From Oscillospiraceae bacterium (GTDB lineage: Bacteria; Bacillota; Clostridia; Oscillospirales; Acutalibacteraceae): DNA of 64,000 bases. The stretch spans positions 1-64,000 of the forward strand of contig SVQE01000001.1 in the NCBI GenBank assembly GCA_015065505.1, in the 5' to 3' direction. How positions within the stretch are numbered: the first letter of the stretch is position 1; every line of letters starts with the position of its first letter. Positions 16,466 to 23,062 of the stretch are shown one piece after another. Under the pieces are notes generated by a model. It was not told the origin of the DNA, made no database searches, and worked only from the letters and a program-made list of their open reading frames with translations. Position numbers and translations under genes: made by a program.

Positions 16466-17479
16466 TTATGATTCAAAATTTACTTTGTTTTTATCGAATT
16501 TTTCAAGGTCTTTATCCCACTGAGAGTAGTTTTCTACTCCTTTAAGGCTCTCGAAAGAGTAGTTATTTTTGATGTATTCCCCGAGGTAAAGCGTAACGCC
16601 CTTTGCGCCTTCGTAGTTAAGATGGTTGCCCTCATCCCTGAAGCAGTTGGTCATATTTATTCCCATTTCCTCATAGTGGAGATTCAAGTCAAGATAGGGA
16701 ACTTTTCTTTCGTCGGCATATTTCTGCGCCGCATTATGTCTCTCATAATTCCAGGAATTAATAGTGGGCAGGGTTAAAATCATAACCTCTGCGCCGTGAG
16801 CTTTGCAGTATTCAATAAGCTCGTCAGTCTGCTGTTTGTTAAGATTTGAGAAATCATCTATTTTATCTGTTTCAATCATATAATCAGATTGCTTGAGCAC
16901 GCAGGTTCTTGTGTTGAATCTGTAGCCGTGAGAATTATATGGCGCGGCGTCGGTATCCTTTCCGCCCTGCCAGTAGTTATGAAATCTGAAAATCGAAAAA
17001 ACATTTTCAATATTGTGGTTGAAGAATTCGGGGTCCATTCTGTCGAAGAAATCGTTAAGGCGGTTTTCCTTCTCGAGCTTTTTGCCGTCAACGGGCTCGC
17101 CGTCGTAAAACATATCCGTTTCAATTATAACAAGCTCCGGTGACTGCTTTTCAAAAAGCATTTCAAGGATTTTCTGAGATTCGGGAATTGTCTGGTGAAT
17201 TGAAGCGCTTACAACGCTTGTATATCCGTATTCCCTCCACATTTCAAGCGGAACATAACCCGAATAAACATCGCTGTTGCCGATTCCGACAATCTGAATT
17301 GTCTGAGGCTTTTCATTGATAAAGGAGTAGGCGTCCTTTTTATTATTGTTGTATTTCAGTGCCGAGGTCTCTGTGAAAACAGTTACCGAAAGCACCTGAA
17401 GAACTATGAAAAACACCAGCACAAACGACAGGAGCTTAACAACTTCAATCGATTTTTCTTTTAACAACGCTTTATTCAT
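16466..17479 (-). CDS. SGNH/DltD-like protein partnering an MBOAT acyltransferase
   Basis: One N-terminal membrane anchor (LLSFVLVFFIVLQVLSV) precedes an extracytoplasmic SGNH-type domain. The block I motif IVGIGNSDVYSG carries the likely catalytic Ser. A late Asp/His region (CFRDEGNHLNYEGAKG) completes the triad pattern. Such proteins receive or hydrolyse acyl groups delivered by an MBOAT enzyme, as DltD does in teichoic acid D-alanylation. The ATG is three bases after the MBOAT stop with no strong ribosome site, so translation is probably coupled. It is the last gene of the four-gene operon. Which acyl group and which polymer are modified cannot be told from sequence. Confidence 0.75.
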   Translation of the reverse strand: MNKALLKEKSIEVVKLLSFVLVFFIVLQVLSVTVFTETSALKYNNNKKDAYSFINEKPQTIQIVGIGNSDVYSGYVPLEMWREYGYTSVVSASIHQTIPESQKILEMLFEKQSPELVIIETDMFYDGEPVDGKKLEKENRLNDFFDRMDPEFFNHNIENVFSIFRFHNYWQGGKDTDAAPYNSHGYRFNTRTCVLKQSDYMIETDKIDDFSNLNKQQTDELIEYCKAHGAEVMILTLPTINSWNYERHNAAQKYADERKVPYLDLNLHYEEMGINMTNCFRDEGNHLNYEGAKGVTLYLGEYIKNNYSFESLKGVENYSQWDKDLEKFDKNKVNFES

Positions 17480-17482
17480 ATA

Positions 17483-19060
17483 CTAAAAGTTAGCGTATAT
17501 CAAATCAACTACGCCATACCCCTCTCCGTAAGCACCGAAAATGATGATTACAAATATTGCCGCAAGATATAAAACAAATTTCAAAGCAAAAGGCAGCTTA
17601 TAAATTCTTTCAATTATATCAACTTTTCTCTCCTTGAGTATTCCGACAAGGAGAATTGCCAGGAAGCCTATTATAATAACCGCGTAATCATATAAGTTTA
17701 TGTCGATGCTGTTTTCTCCTCCTGGAATAAGCACCGAGCAATCGCCGTTTCTGAACATTGACGCAAACATACTAACGGCTGCTTTAAGATTTTCTGCTCT
17801 GAAAATAAGCATACCGATGTTTACTATAATAACTGTTCTCAAAACCGCAAAAATGCTGAAGCTCTTTGATTCGCGGTTGATTTTAAGCTTGCTGCAGAGC
17901 TTATCCGTAAGCGGCTTAAAGAACATACCGAGCATCATAAGGAAGTAGTAATACAAGCCGTAAACAATGTATTTCCAGCCCGAGCCGTGCCAGAAGCCGT
18001 TTGTAAACCAAACGAAAAACAGCGCGATTGCAGTCGGAATAAGGCTTGCATAATACTGATTGAACTTCTCTTTTGTTTTTGCGGAAAGATTTTTTATGCC
18101 CTTTGAAAGTGAAACGGGATAGAAAATATAGTCCCTGAGGAACGAGCCCAGAGAAATATGCCATCTCTGCCAGAATTCATTAATTGATTTGGCAAAGAAG
18201 GGCTGATTGAAGTTTTCGGGAAGAATAATGCCGATCATTCTTCCGAGTCCGCACATAATATCCATAACACCCGAAAACTCGCAGTAAAGCTGAAGAGTGT
18301 AAAAAAGTATTGCGGCGACAACGGGGAAGCCGCTGAAGCTTTCATAATTATCAAAAACACCGCTGACAAGCAAAACGGCTCTGTCGGCAATAACAACCTT
18401 CTTGAAAAGTCCCCAGACAACGCGAAGATAGCCCTTGCTTATATCCTCAAGATTGTTGTATTTGCACTCCTTTAGCTGAGCTCCGAGCTGGGAATATCTT
18501 GCGATAGGTCCTTCAACAACGGTCAGCATAAAGGAAAGATAGAGCGAAATGCGAAGCGGATTTTTCTCTGCGTCGATTTTGCCGTAATAAACATCGGCAA
18601 TATAGCTCACGCCCTGAAGAACAAAGAACGAAATTCCCAACGGCTGAATAATTGCAAGCTCGGGAATATTGAATGCAGGAATGAGATTCAGCGCTTCGAT
18701 GAAGAAGTTTATGTATTTGCAAATGAGCAATATTAATACAACCAACACAACGCCGATTGCCAAAATAACGCGTTTATATTGGTTGTATTTTGCTTTTATG
18801 AGCTTTTTTTCTTCCTTTGAAGCAAGCTTTCTTTTCTCCTTCATTGTGTCGTTTGTCTTTTGTAGGCACAAGCCTGCGCCCCAGACGAGAATTGAAACAA
18901 TAATAAACGGAATTACATTTCCCTTTGAGGAAATGAAGTAAAAACCGTAGGAGCTTGTAAGCAGAATAATCCATCTCAGCTTGCGCGGAAGGATGGAGTA
19001 AATAATTGCAGTTATCCCGAAGAACAGCAGGAAAAAGGAAAATGATGCGTAGCTAATCAT
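17483..19060 (-). CDS. MBOAT-family membrane O-acyltransferase (DltB/AlgI-like)
   Basis: This is a 525-residue polytopic protein with about twelve hydrophobic segments and the MBOAT signatures ISFFVLQGVSYIADVYYGK, EFWQRWHISLGSFLRDY and FTNGFWHGSGW. The His of FWHG is the expected catalytic residue. Family members move an acyl group from a carrier protein across the membrane to an outer-surface acceptor. It lies between the carrier-protein gene (3 bp gap) and the SGNH gene (3 bp gap), exactly the DltB context. A GAGGACGAGG site overlaps the end of the carrier gene. Confidence 0.88.
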   Translation of the reverse strand: MISYASFSFFLLFFGITAIIYSILPRKLRWIILLTSSYGFYFISSKGNVIPFIIVSILVWGAGLCLQKTNDTMKEKRKLASKEEKKLIKAKYNQYKRVILAIGVVLVVLILLICKYINFFIEALNLIPAFNIPELAIIQPLGISFFVLQGVSYIADVYYGKIDAEKNPLRISLYLSFMLTVVEGPIARYSQLGAQLKECKYNNLEDISKGYLRVVWGLFKKVVIADRAVLLVSGVFDNYESFSGFPVVAAILFYTLQLYCEFSGVMDIMCGLGRMIGIILPENFNQPFFAKSINEFWQRWHISLGSFLRDYIFYPVSLSKGIKNLSAKTKEKFNQYYASLIPTAIALFFVWFTNGFWHGSGWKYIVYGLYYYFLMMLGMFFKPLTDKLCSKLKINRESKSFSIFAVLRTVIIVNIGMLIFRAENLKAAVSMFASMFRNGDCSVLIPGGENSIDINLYDYAVIIIGFLAILLVGILKERKVDIIERIYKLPFALKFVLYLAAIFVIIIFGAYGEGYGVVDLIYANF

Positions 19061-19063
19061 TCA

Positions 19064-19294
19064 TTAATCCTCGTCCTCAAGACGCTCAATAAGACTCTGA
19101 ATTGCAGCAGGTGTTGCAAAGTTTTCGGGAGTTATATCCCTTGCGGAAATATCAACATCAAACTCGTCGCTGAGAGTTCCGACAAGGTTAATCATTGCAA
19201 GTGAATCAATGATGTGTTCATCAATTAATGCGGTGTTTTCGTTTATTTCTGCACCGGGCTTGATTTCCTTTAAAATTTCAATAATCTTTTCCAT
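19064..19294 (-). CDS. Acyl carrier protein (DltC-like)
   Basis: A 76-residue four-helix carrier protein. Ser31 in HIIDSLAMINL is the expected phosphopantetheine attachment site. The acidic composition and length are typical of DltC and stand-alone ACPs. It begins one base after the AMP-ligase stop and is followed by the MBOAT gene after three bases, so the adenylating enzyme, carrier and membrane transferase form one module. Confidence 0.88.
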   Translation of the reverse strand: MEKIIEILKEIKPGAEINENTALIDEHIIDSLAMINLVGTLSDEFDVDISARDITPENFATPAAIQSLIERLEDED

Positions 19295-19295
19295 T

Positions 19296-20795
19296 TTATA
19301 TCCTCTTTTCCAATTCTTTTCTGTCTATTTTTCCGTTTGCATTGCGCGGCAGTGAGCCCATTTTAACAACCTCGTCGGGAATGAAATAAGCATTGAGCTT
19401 TGATTTGAGAAAATCAAGCATTTCATTCTCTTTAACCTTGGCTGCATTGTAATACAAAACGATTTTATCCGTTTCTTTTCTGAAAATGCAGGCGCATTCC
19501 TTAACGCCGTCGAGAGAACCTGCGGCAGCCTCGATTTCGCCGAGCTCAATTCTGTAGCCCATTCGCTTAATCTGAAAATCCTTTCTGCCGATATATATGA
19601 TTTCGCCGAGCTCGTTCATTTTAACAAGGTCGCCTGTTTTATAGCAGGCTTCGGGGAATGCTTTGTTCAGGGGATTCTGAACAAACATTTCAGCGGTTTT
19701 TTCGGGATTATTGTAATAACCCGATGCAACGAATGAGCCGCGAACATAAAGCTCGCCCTCTTCGTTTATATCAGCCTCGCTTCCGTCCTCTTTAAGAATG
19801 AAAACATTGCAGTTATCGCAGTGCCTTCCTATCGGAAGCGAATCGCTCGGGTCAAACTCTCTGTCGGCAACATAATATGTGCAGATATCCGTTGTTTCCG
19901 TTGGACCGAAGAGGTTTGCAAAAACCGTTTCATCGGGAAGATATTTCTTCCAGTAGTTAAGGAACTTAATCGGCATAACCTCGCCTGCAAACAAAACGGT
20001 TTTAAGATATTTCGGCTTTTCAACATCAAAAAGCTTGAAGTTTGCAGCAATTCCGAATGCGCTCGGAACCCAGTAAATCGTGTTAATTTCGTTTGTGTTT
20101 AAAAATTCAACAAGCTTAATCGGGAATGAGAAGCAGATTTTCGGAATAATAATCAGCGTTGCGCCCGTTCTTAAGGTTGAATAAATATCGGTAACCGACA
20201 TCGAAAAATAAAACGGAGTCTGATTTCCGAAAACGGTGCTTTCGCTGATGCCGAAAGTTTCAACCGCCCACTTGCTGTAGGATAAAACATTCTTGTGGTT
20301 GATAACCGTGCCCTTGGGCATTCCCGTTGAACCCGAGGTGTAGAGAATATACAGCGAATCCGTGTCAATCTGCGCGCTTCTGATTTCGCTGAGCCTTTCG
20401 GCGTTGATTTCAGCACTCTTAGCCTCGTTAATCAAAAAGGTTTCAAGGTTTAATTCCTTTGCCTTTTCGCTGTTTGCCTCATCGGTTATTACGGCAACGG
20501 GGCAGAGCGTTGAAAAAATCTTATCGATTCTTTCTTTCGGCATTTCGGTGTCGATAACAGTGTATATATTTCCGCTGTAAACAATGCCCATCATTGCGCA
20601 TATAACATCTGCGCTTTTGTTGATATATATTGCAATCGGCTTGTTTTTAACGCCGAGCTCAAGCAGCGCCGAGCCGATTCTTTTTGAATGGTTTTCAAGC
20701 TGTGAATATGTAACTGCACCCTTATCGTCAACAAAGGCGTTTTTGTCGGGAAAACGGGCAGCCGACCTTTCAAGCATCTCTAAAATATTTTTCAT
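19296..20795 (-). CDS. AMP-dependent ligase / adenylation enzyme (DltA-like)
   Basis: This 499-residue adenylate-forming enzyme carries ATP-binding motif YTSGSTGMPKGT, the aromatic/GPTE block NLFGPTETTD, hinge region YKTGDLV, and the C-terminal catalytic lysine in NANGKIDRKEL. It should activate a carboxylate with ATP and load it on the adjacent carrier protein. DltA activates D-alanine. Whether that is the substrate here is uncertain, because stand-alone amino-acid adenylation domains look alike and the neighbouring condensation-fold gene is atypical for dlt. GAGGTT lies three bases before the ATG. It is the first gene of the operon. Confidence 0.82.
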   Translation of the reverse strand: MKNILEMLERSAARFPDKNAFVDDKGAVTYSQLENHSKRIGSALLELGVKNKPIAIYINKSADVICAMMGIVYSGNIYTVIDTEMPKERIDKIFSTLCPVAVITDEANSEKAKELNLETFLINEAKSAEINAERLSEIRSAQIDTDSLYILYTSGSTGMPKGTVINHKNVLSYSKWAVETFGISESTVFGNQTPFYFSMSVTDIYSTLRTGATLIIIPKICFSFPIKLVEFLNTNEINTIYWVPSAFGIAANFKLFDVEKPKYLKTVLFAGEVMPIKFLNYWKKYLPDETVFANLFGPTETTDICTYYVADREFDPSDSLPIGRHCDNCNVFILKEDGSEADINEEGELYVRGSFVASGYYNNPEKTAEMFVQNPLNKAFPEACYKTGDLVKMNELGEIIYIGRKDFQIKRMGYRIELGEIEAAAGSLDGVKECACIFRKETDKIVLYYNAAKVKENEMLDFLKSKLNAYFIPDEVVKMGSLPRNANGKIDRKELEKRI

Positions 20796-20852
20796 TTGAA
20801 CCTCAATATAACGGTGAAAATACTATAAAAAAATACCGTTCTTTGCGAAACT

Positions 20853-20858
20853 ATTATA
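20853..20858 (-). promoter_or_regulatory. -10 element upstream of the Dlt-like operon
   Basis: A perfect TATAAT on the minus strand lies about 58 bases before the adenylation gene start, downstream of the preceding terminator. No convincing -35 hexamer sits 16-18 bp upstream. Confidence 0.45.
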
Positions 20859-20944
20859 ACATATAAAGTGCAAAAGTACAGATACAAAATGTTGAAAATA
20901 CTGCCAAATATGACAAAATTTTATATATGATGTACAAAAAACGA

Positions 20945-20976
20945 AAAACACAGAGCGTTTTGCTCTGTGCTTTCTG
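20945..20976 (-). terminator. Terminator after the condensation-fold gene
   Basis: CACAGAGC pairs with GCTCTGTG around a short A-rich loop and is followed on the minus strand by TTTTTCG. It separates the two-gene upstream unit from the Dlt-like operon, so the two are not obligatorily co-transcribed. Confidence 0.75.
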
Positions 20977-20981
20977 TTTTA

Positions 20982-22268
20982 TTAACCTTCAATTAAACTG
21001 TTTATTGACTGCTCGAGGAGGTCGAAGAAACGCTCAACGGTTTTCTTATCCTCGTCGTTTCCGCGAACGCACATTGAAAGGGTTAATACCTTTCTCATAG
21101 AGGTTGCGGAAAGAAGCGCGTAGGGCTTATATTTAACCGCGCCGCTCATAAATCCGTCCGTCGGCTCGTTGCCTGCAAGAGCGAGCTTATCAACCTCAAG
21201 AATGCCGATATTGCTCATTGCAAGAAGCGGATTTGCATAGCCGATTTTTATGATTTCCTCGCTTGCTGCGTGGGGCATAATCTTATATCCGAGCGATAAA
21301 AGCGGAAGCCCGTGAAGCCCCATAAATCTGTCGTTTTTAAACTCGTTTGAGGACTTAACAACATAGTCGAGAGTTTCAAAAATATCCTTGCCGCGATGCG
21401 GAATTCTGCACTGCATCCACGCGGTCTGATTGGTTATGCCCTGACCGGCGTCATCCTTGATATGGCGTCTTAAATCTATTGCGCAGGATATTGAAATTCC
21501 CTCTTCCTCGCCGAAGCCTGCAAGCTCGTAAAGGCTGTAGAAATATGCGCTTAAAATCATATCGTTGATTGTCGCGCCGCGCTTTTTGCCCGAAGCGCGA
21601 AGCTTGTCGAAGGTTTCAGCCGAGAAGCGCCGCCTTGCTATGAAGGAATGGTCCTCAATATTATCGGGGGTGAAAGGGAAGCCGTGATTATCCTTTGTGT
21701 TGATGTTTTTATAGAGCCTTTTTGCCATACGGCGCTCGCCTGGGGTGAAATCCTCATAAACCGCTTCATAAGAGCGTGTTCCCGTTCTCAGAGCAATCGG
21801 GCTTACGCCGTTTTCAATGTATTCGCTGTAGTTTTTGCAGAGCGATTTCATAAAGTATTTCAAATCGCCGCCGTCCATACACATATGGTTTTCAACAACG
21901 AGCAAAACGGACTTATTATCGCCGTAATAGAAAACGGCAACCTTCATCTGAACATTGCTTTCGGGCGGAATATACTGAACAAGAAAGCTGTTGATTTCCT
22001 CGTCAAGGTTTGCTTCGTCAACATCCTTAACGGTTAAAACATCGTTGATGTGATAATCCTCAACGGTCCAGTAGGTGTTGAGATGATTATCGTTGAAAGA
22101 GGAGTGAAGCACTGGCGCTTTTTCAAAGAAGCAGGTGATAACCGTTTTAAGCGCTTCAACATCAATTTTGTAATCGTAATGGAGCTCGACATGAACCATT
22201 CTGTCGTTAAAATCGCGGAAGAGATAATGCATTTTATCCCAAAGCTCAGCGTTTAGTTTTCTTGCCAT
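20982..22268 (-). CDS. Condensation/alcohol-acetyltransferase-fold acyltransferase
   Basis: The 428 residues have the two-lobed CoA-dependent acyltransferase architecture. The active-site motif HxxxDGG appears as ENHMCMDGGDLK at about residue 135. The N-terminal segment (VHVELHYDYKIDVEALK) and a C-terminal latch region rich in glycine and methionine fit NRPS condensation, WS/DGAT and alcohol-acetyltransferase families. It should join an acyl group to an alcohol or amine, but donor and acceptor are unknown. Its start overlaps the membrane-protein gene by 16 bases. A good GGAGGTGG site lies upstream. Its position beside an adenylation/carrier/MBOAT operon suggests an acyl-transfer pathway for an envelope or lipid product; that link is inference. 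Confidence 0.65.
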   Translation of the reverse strand: MARKLNAELWDKMHYLFRDFNDRMVHVELHYDYKIDVEALKTVITCFFEKAPVLHSSFNDNHLNTYWTVEDYHINDVLTVKDVDEANLDEEINSFLVQYIPPESNVQMKVAVFYYGDNKSVLLVVENHMCMDGGDLKYFMKSLCKNYSEYIENGVSPIALRTGTRSYEAVYEDFTPGERRMAKRLYKNINTKDNHGFPFTPDNIEDHSFIARRRFSAETFDKLRASGKKRGATINDMILSAYFYSLYELAGFGEEEGISISCAIDLRRHIKDDAGQGITNQTAWMQCRIPHRGKDIFETLDYVVKSSNEFKNDRFMGLHGLPLLSLGYKIMPHAASEEIIKIGYANPLLAMSNIGILEVDKLALAGNEPTDGFMSGAVKYKPYALLSATSMRKVLTLSMCVRGNDEDKKTVERFFDLLEQSINSLIEG

Positions 22269-23062
22269 ACGTCTTCCACCTCCATCTTATCCTTCTTATT
22301 CTTCGAAATCGCTGCAATGATTATGATTAAATCCAAAACAAGCGAAAGCGGAATTATTATCCATGCAATATTCCATGCAAGAAGTCCGAGAGCGCCGATG
22401 ATTATGAATGCAAACACCGAAATAACGGGAATATAAAGCACCCACTGAATTATTGAAAGTCTTGCGTGGGTTATGCTTGCAAAAAGACCGTCGCACAGGA
22501 ATGCAAGAATCAGACCTGCGATTATGATAAGCCAGCTGTTTGCAATATCCGTTAACGCAATGACAAGCAAGAATACGGCAACAACGAATATAACAACTGC
22601 GCCGAAAAGCAGAAGCCTTGCGAAAATATGGAAAATTCTTTTCATTGAAACAAACTTTGCGATTCCGAGCGAAAGCAGATAATCAACCCACAGCAGAATT
22701 CCGTCTACAACCAGAATCCATGTGTAAGCCCATTTACGGGTTATAAAGCTGACAGCAAGATAAAGGGTTACAGTCAGAATTATATATGCCAGCGAACCGA
22801 GAATATTTCCGATAACTCTGCGTTTAACCTTTGTTTTTGCGTTTTCCTTTTGCAAATACTCATTGTATTCGCCCTTCAAATCAGCGTGCTCGCTGATAAT
22901 CAGGTCGTTTAAAACCTTCCGGTCGTGAATGCCGCCCGTTCCCGTAACCTGTGCAGCTCTCTCGTTCATATCATCAAGAATATCCTTCTTGAATTTGAAC
23001 AGAGTTTTATCGCCTTTTTTGTCGGGCAGGGCACTGTTTATGTATTCAACAAAACTTTGCAT
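22253..23062 (-). CDS. Polytopic membrane protein of unknown function
   Basis: A soluble N-terminal region of about 85 residues (DDMNERAAQVTGTGGIHDRK) resembles the helical prefix of DUF1700-like or permease-prefix domains. It is followed by six hydrophobic segments and a short charged tail. I recognise no catalytic motif. The gene has an AAGGAGG ribosome site and overlaps the condensation-fold gene by 16 bases, so the two products are probably made together and may interact at the membrane. Confidence 0.6.
   Translation of the reverse strand: MQSFVEYINSALPDKKGDKTLFKFKKDILDDMNERAAQVTGTGGIHDRKVLNDLIISEHADLKGEYNEYLQKENAKTKVKRRVIGNILGSLAYIILTVTLYLAVSFITRKWAYTWILVVDGILLWVDYLLSLGIAKFVSMKRIFHIFARLLLFGAVVIFVVAVFLLVIALTDIANSWLIIIAGLILAFLCDGLFASITHARLSIIQWVLYIPVISVFAFIIIGALGLLAWNIAWIIIPLSLVLDLIIIIAAISKNKKDKMEVEDVWQEN

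Follow-up and report, generated by a model that had tools for sequence, protein, structure and literature searches.

A predicted carrier-protein-dependent, DltX-free MBOAT-SGNH cassette of Clostridia with an adenylation pocket unlike that of DltA

D-alanylation is the textbook way in which Gram-positive bacteria tune the charge of their envelope. The systems closest to the locus described here are the Dlt system (DltA, DltC, DltB, DltD and DltX) and the PatA-type MBOAT-SGNH pairs. In PatA and DltX, the acyl group is handed to the SGNH enzyme by the tyrosine of a FXYXXF motif, NgPatA of N. gonorrhoeae ending in FIYANF; outside Dlt, MBOAT-SGNH systems have neither DltX nor a carrier protein (PMC12148441). 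As regards substrate choice, Thr297, Asp197 and Val301 contact the amine in B. cereus DltA bound to D-Ala-AMP, and Cys269 selects D-Ala over L-Ala (PMC8972799). The aspartate at this site (DltA Asp197, GrsA Asp235) binds the substrate amine (PMC8972799, PMC11356792) and its loss marks domains which activate acids without an alpha-amino group, according to the passage of PMC11356792 that cites Stachelhaus 1999. No earlier report on dlt-like MBOAT systems in Clostridia was found in the literature searched.

The window, that is, the whole stretch of 64,000 nucleotides analysed from an Oscillospiraceae bacterium (contig SVQE01000001.1), carries on its minus strand a polytopic membrane protein gene (MEM), a gene for a condensation-fold acyltransferase (COND), a terminator, and the genes for an adenylation domain (A), a carrier protein (CP), an MBOAT acyltransferase and an SGNH protein, transcribed in this order (Table 1). 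The six open reading frames listed in the initial annotation, as well as the terminator it placed between the units, a 13-pair hairpin, were all recovered, and each of the six genes is conserved in relatives, so that none of them is a chance reading frame. The A-CP-MBOAT-SGNH cassette and the MEM-COND pair are, we conclude, two independent transcription units lying side by side. The description of the former as a full dlt set is loose: the four protein families are present, but the NCBIfam cut-offs of DltA, DltB and DltC are not reached, no DltD model matches, and the SGNH protein is recognised only weakly by Pfam.

Table 1. Positions in the window of the genes, sites and residues discussed in the text
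Feature	Positions	Strand	Remarks
MEM, polytopic membrane protein	22253-23062	-	no Pfam match; COND neighbour in 77/80 loci
COND, CAT/condensation-fold acyltransferase	20982-22268	-	PF00668, 5.6e-10
HMCMDGG motif of COND (HxxxDGG)	21867-21887	-
Rho-independent terminator, after COND and before A	20944-20974	-	13 pairs and T run
Promoter-like site 5' of the A gene	20822-20849	-	weak, 9/12 matches
A, standalone adenylation domain, 499 aa	19296-20795	-	PF00501, 4.4e-66
Ser198 of A	20202-20204	-	aligned to DltA Asp197/GrsA Asp235
Ala270 of A	19986-19988	-	aligned to DltA Cys269
Asp303 of A	19887-19889	-	aligned to DltA Val301
CP, carrier protein, 76 aa	19064-19294	-	PF00550, 1.4e-6
Ser31 of CP in IIDSLAM	19202-19204	-	phosphopantetheine site
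MBOAT acyltransferase, 525 aa	17483-19060	-	PF03062, 9.4e-15
His301 of MBOAT	18158-18160	-	aligns with DltB WH...L histidine
His358 of MBOAT	17987-17989	-	aligns with DltB FWHG histidine
LIYANF, MBOAT C-terminus, predicted acyl-tyrosine shuttle	17486-17503	-	DltX/PatA FXYXXF-like
Tyr522 in LIYANF	17495-17497	-
SGNH/GDSL-like protein	16466-17479	-	PF13472, 0.0018, below cut-off

The adenylation domain scores above the cut-off of TIGR01733, the model for amino-acid adenylation, and reaches 324.5 bits with the DltA model TIGR01734, below the cut-off of 560 (559.85). Its pocket code, read by sequence alignment at positions 235, 236, 239, 278, 299, 301, 322, 330, 331 and 517 of GrsA as assigned from motif landmarks, is SMTWLALDIK, while the codes aligned for the B. 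cereus (3FCC) and B. subtilis (3E7W) DltA proteins are DLMSLCTVAK and DLMSMCTVAK. The residue correspondence to DltA was checked by counting along the 3FCC alignment, and all three D-Ala pocket residues, Asp197, Cys269 and Val301, are replaced in A. In about 20 orthologues of the genus the code is nearly invariant, varying only at positions 239 and 299, and Asp303 is invariant in the S-type orthologues. The initial annotation had proposed an unusual acyl group, with an adenylation pocket identical to that of DltA as the outcome that would count against it; the pocket proved to be far from identical to that of the D-Ala enzymes, which sustains the proposal. Since a new, invariant Asp occupies the position of Val301, the alignment suggests that the polar contact in the pocket may have moved to Asp303 rather than vanished.

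The carrier protein has the carrier fold and the serine of the DSL motif, scoring 36.4 and 26.3 bits with the two DltC models (cut-offs 68 and 52). The MBOAT protein matches DltB of structure 6bug (7.7e-18) and shows the MBOAT fold with both conserved DltB histidines, although it reaches only 147.5 bits with the DltB model TIGR04091, whose cut-off is 375. Its C-terminal hexapeptide begins with Leu where FXYXXF has Phe, and is conserved in the cassette family; in fact, nearly all full-length cassette MBOATs inspected class-wide end in a motif of the type G.YG...[FLI][IM]Yxx[FY], the exceptions being a second, AlgI-like MBOAT in locus L269 and the short DltB-like MBOAT of locus L270. No open reading frame for a separate DltX microprotein exists between the cassette genes and, with the shuttle motif fused to the MBOAT, no DltX would be needed. 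The SGNH protein, a putative transferase at the outer face of the membrane, displays the blocks GNSDVYSG (with Ser69) and RDEGNHLNYEG, both kept in orthologues; the DltD family PF04914 gave no match to it at E 0.1, a weak GDSL match alone being obtained.

On these grounds, a route for the four-gene unit can be proposed, which we hold to be probable as a whole: an acid other than D-Ala would pass from CP to Tyr522 of the MBOAT, then to the SGNH protein and finally to an envelope polymer, MEM and COND standing apart. Judging from the protein families and the altered pocket, A would adenylate a small carboxylic acid other than D-alanine and load it onto the phosphopantetheine of CP. The MBOAT, by analogy with DltX and PatA, would pick up the acyl group that CP presents at the inner face of the membrane and place it on its own Tyr522 in LIYANF, a step consistent with the motif itself and with both MBOAT histidines. 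The acyl-tyrosine would then swing to the catalytic serine of the SGNH protein, which may transfer the acyl group to a hydroxyl of the envelope polymer.

Many species keep the order A-CP-MBOAT-SGNH in surroundings that are unrelated. When 391 genomes of the class were scanned with a profile of the S-type adenylation domains, a large family of standalone domains emerged, well apart in score from the NRPS domains, and the DltA model was passed in none of 98 relatives' genomes. The code SM[TSL]W[LM]ALDIK is found in the genus of the window, one other genus of the family and two genomes of another family. Most class matches inspected have DAKWAGLGMK, further groups being DVKWLSLCNK, DAPWMCLYAK, DSKWMCIVDK and more. 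Across Clostridia, such cassettes fall under several distinct pocket codes, each conserved within its own group. In a quick maximum-likelihood tree most S-coded rows grouped in a single clade (SH-aLRT 99) that excluded the DltA and NRPS rows, and the S-coded L165 fell outside it on a long branch.

The cassettes also vary in composition. In the DVKWLSLCNK sister cassettes (L184, L186, L188 and L272, of genomes G072, G052, G037 and G300), the A and CP genes are separated by one for a PLP enzyme of the LysA/BtrK family, which suggests that the substrate is modified, perhaps on the carrier, and a GNAT gene occupies the same place in L256 (DSKWMCIVDK); hence, the substrate-handling genes seem to vary with the pocket. 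The MBOATs of the DAKWAGLGMK loci (L229-L252 and L258-L269) end in FIYNQF or similar. L270 (G144:C1) contains two tandem standalone A domains, coded DNFWVCLDVK and DNFWLAMDIK, followed by CP, and its MBOAT is without the fused shuttle. Some genomes have more than one SMTWLALDIK-type locus (L189, L201 and L202, in G037, G054 and G047), a second CP-MBOAT-SGNH block lying beside the first in L189 and L201. In the genome of the window, a second MBOAT-SGNH pair (L204, G000:C81:41039-42622), with no A or CP beside it, is probably a PatA-like acyl-CoA system, and a 2610-aa NRPS at a contig end (L205, G000:C22) has two A domains with the codes DITTVGVVWK and DVWFISLIDK.

Several readings of the nature of the acyl group and its acceptor have to be weighed. 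That the cassette might be an ordinary D-alanylation operon, whose A is a diverged DltA still activating D-Ala for teichoic acid, agrees with the dlt-like gene set and order and with the fact that the best equivalog-type matches are DltA, DltB and DltC. Nevertheless, we consider it very improbable, as all these matches fall below the cut-offs, the three variable D-Ala-recognising residues are replaced by others nearly fixed across the clade, and the class relatives near true DltA (L152-L154) retain D...C...V; the plain dlt operon was rejected on pocket residues and model scores. The cassette most likely decorates an envelope polymer with an acyl group that is not D-Ala. Domains activating hydroxy or carboxy acids have typically lost Asp235, and Ser235 is reported for an EntE mutant which binds 2-aminobenzoate (PMC11356792), both of which favour the loading of a hydroxy, keto or aryl acid and no amino acid; with A still above the amino-acid model TIGR01733, and with the invariant Asp303 at an amine-contact position of DltA suggesting a basic group, such a substrate is conceivable but doubtful. 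It can be proposed only tentatively that A activates an omega-amino acid, beta-alanine and GABA being examples, or a related acid lacking the alpha-amino group; the carboxylate that anchors the amine would then stand on the Val301 side of the pocket and no longer on that of Asp197 (Ser198/Asp303). Near the S-type cassettes no substrate-supply gene is conserved, the neighbours being Cpn60, LytR/sortase, alpha-galactosidase and Hsp90. As for the acceptor, the best glycerophosphotransferase of the genome, a 605-aa sulfatase-fold protein (G000:C11), scores 141 bits as an OpgB-type phosphoglycerol transferase vs 31 bits as LtaS, all below cut-off; being closer to OpgB, it does not allow lipoteichoic acid to be assumed as the acceptor. 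No polymer-biosynthesis gene consistently adjoins the cassettes, which would fit a secreted small molecule or a membrane lipid as the acylated product in place of a wall polymer, but where MBOAT-SGNH pairs have been characterised, the acceptors are envelope polymers (PMC12148441), and we find this reading unlikely.

The other question is whether the cassette works together with COND and MEM as one six-gene pathway on a single lipid or polymer, as the initial annotation had supposed. The two units are neighbours on the same strand in the window, as they are in L072, L073 and L074, the loci of its three nearest relatives (COND identity 88-89%), and in G030 (L081/L190, the latter being G030:C90) a different ligase-CP-MBOAT-SGNH cassette, with a divergent ligase code aligned, with uncertainty, as SHRLQGFCIK, lies convergent to MEM-COND, an arrangement that favours the idea although it makes co-transcription with COND impossible. 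Against it stand the terminator, the opposite-strand genes inserted between the units in L072 and L073, and the case of G051, where the cassette keeps the same genomic site, next to the nuoE/PHP operon that it also adjoins in the window, but MEM-COND is absent from this site and found on a separate contig. Moreover, among 80 loci from GTDB genomes MEM and COND adjoin in 77, sharing an identical 16-nt overlap in 73, while the other neighbours change from locus to locus; hairpins of differing sequence lie 3' of COND in relatives, and only in the window, L072, L073 and L074 does a cassette of the window type adjoin the pair, most loci having the pair alone. COND is present in 31 of the 59 other genomes of the genus, nearly always adjoined by MEM. 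When the 60 genomes of the genus, incomplete MAGs in which linkage may be hidden, were sorted by content (11 with both, 21 with COND only, 11 with the cassette only and 17 with neither), co-occurrence did not exceed chance (Fisher p 0.79, and 1.0 in genomes at least 90% complete). The neighbourhood comparison proposed with the annotation thus found the units adjacent only in the window and its three closest relatives, and the six-gene pathway, hardly tenable in our judgement, was rejected on neighbourhood, co-occurrence and terminator evidence.

The pair is likely to carry out a membrane-linked acyl transfer of its own. COND is highly conserved, at identities of 66-89% and with a mean column identity of 78%, MEM less so (51%). 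The COND structure model, of modest confidence (pLDDT 69) and used therefore for the fold class alone, matches the CAT/condensation fold of AzeD, the tyrocidine epimerisation domain (TycB3-E), PapA5 and wax ester synthase; the MEM model (pLDDT 85) consists of helices throughout, and the fold search gave it no significant match. COND shares PF00668, the HxxxDGG motif and the CAT-like fold with the PapA5, NRPS condensation and wax ester synthase acyltransferases, but differs from the PapA5 group in falling below the model cut-off (23.9 bits, cut-off 396), with compatibility at the level of the fold alone, and in forming, together with an uncharacterised membrane protein, an operon of two genes in fixed arrangement.

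These cassettes suggest that many Clostridia, among them rumen and gut species probably annotated as possessing 'DltA', have no DltA-like D-Ala pocket in such operons and use other substrates in Dlt-related machines. With the pocket codes at hand, the question of the substrate can be put directly to a single purified enzyme. Were the omega-amino reading to hold, Clostridia would possess a family of DltX-free, Dlt-like machines placing varied small acids on the envelope, readable from the pocket code.

Compared with Dlt, the cassette follows the same logic with a similar gene set, comprising A, CP, an MBOAT with both histidine motifs and an SGNH protein; it departs from it in that the proteins stay below the DltA, DltB and DltC cut-offs, the residues of the D-Ala pocket are replaced, and the C-terminal extension of the 525-aa MBOAT carries the shuttle motif, with no dltX reading frame between the genes. 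With PatA/PatB and the other MBOAT-SGNH pairs of O-acetylation (AlgI, WssH, PatA1) it shares an MBOAT ending in a FXYXXF-type hexapeptide and followed by an SGNH gene, but the genes for A and CP lie 5' in the cassette, whereas the PatA-type pairs use an acyl-CoA donor and no carrier protein (PMC12148441). The DVKWLSLCNK sister cassettes, distinct from that of the window, recall BtrJ/BtrK/BtrI and VinN/VinO/VinL in joining a LysA/BtrK-family PLP enzyme to A and CP, and differ from them in carrying also MBOAT and SGNH. Lacking DltX and having a carrier protein, the cassette of the window is a hybrid of two described types; as far as its sequence tells, it is a carrier-protein-dependent, DltX-free MBOAT-SGNH system with an adenylation pocket unlike that of DltA, whose carrier protein and predicted fused shuttle bridge the Dlt and PatA mechanisms, kept separate in a recent paper (PMC12148441).
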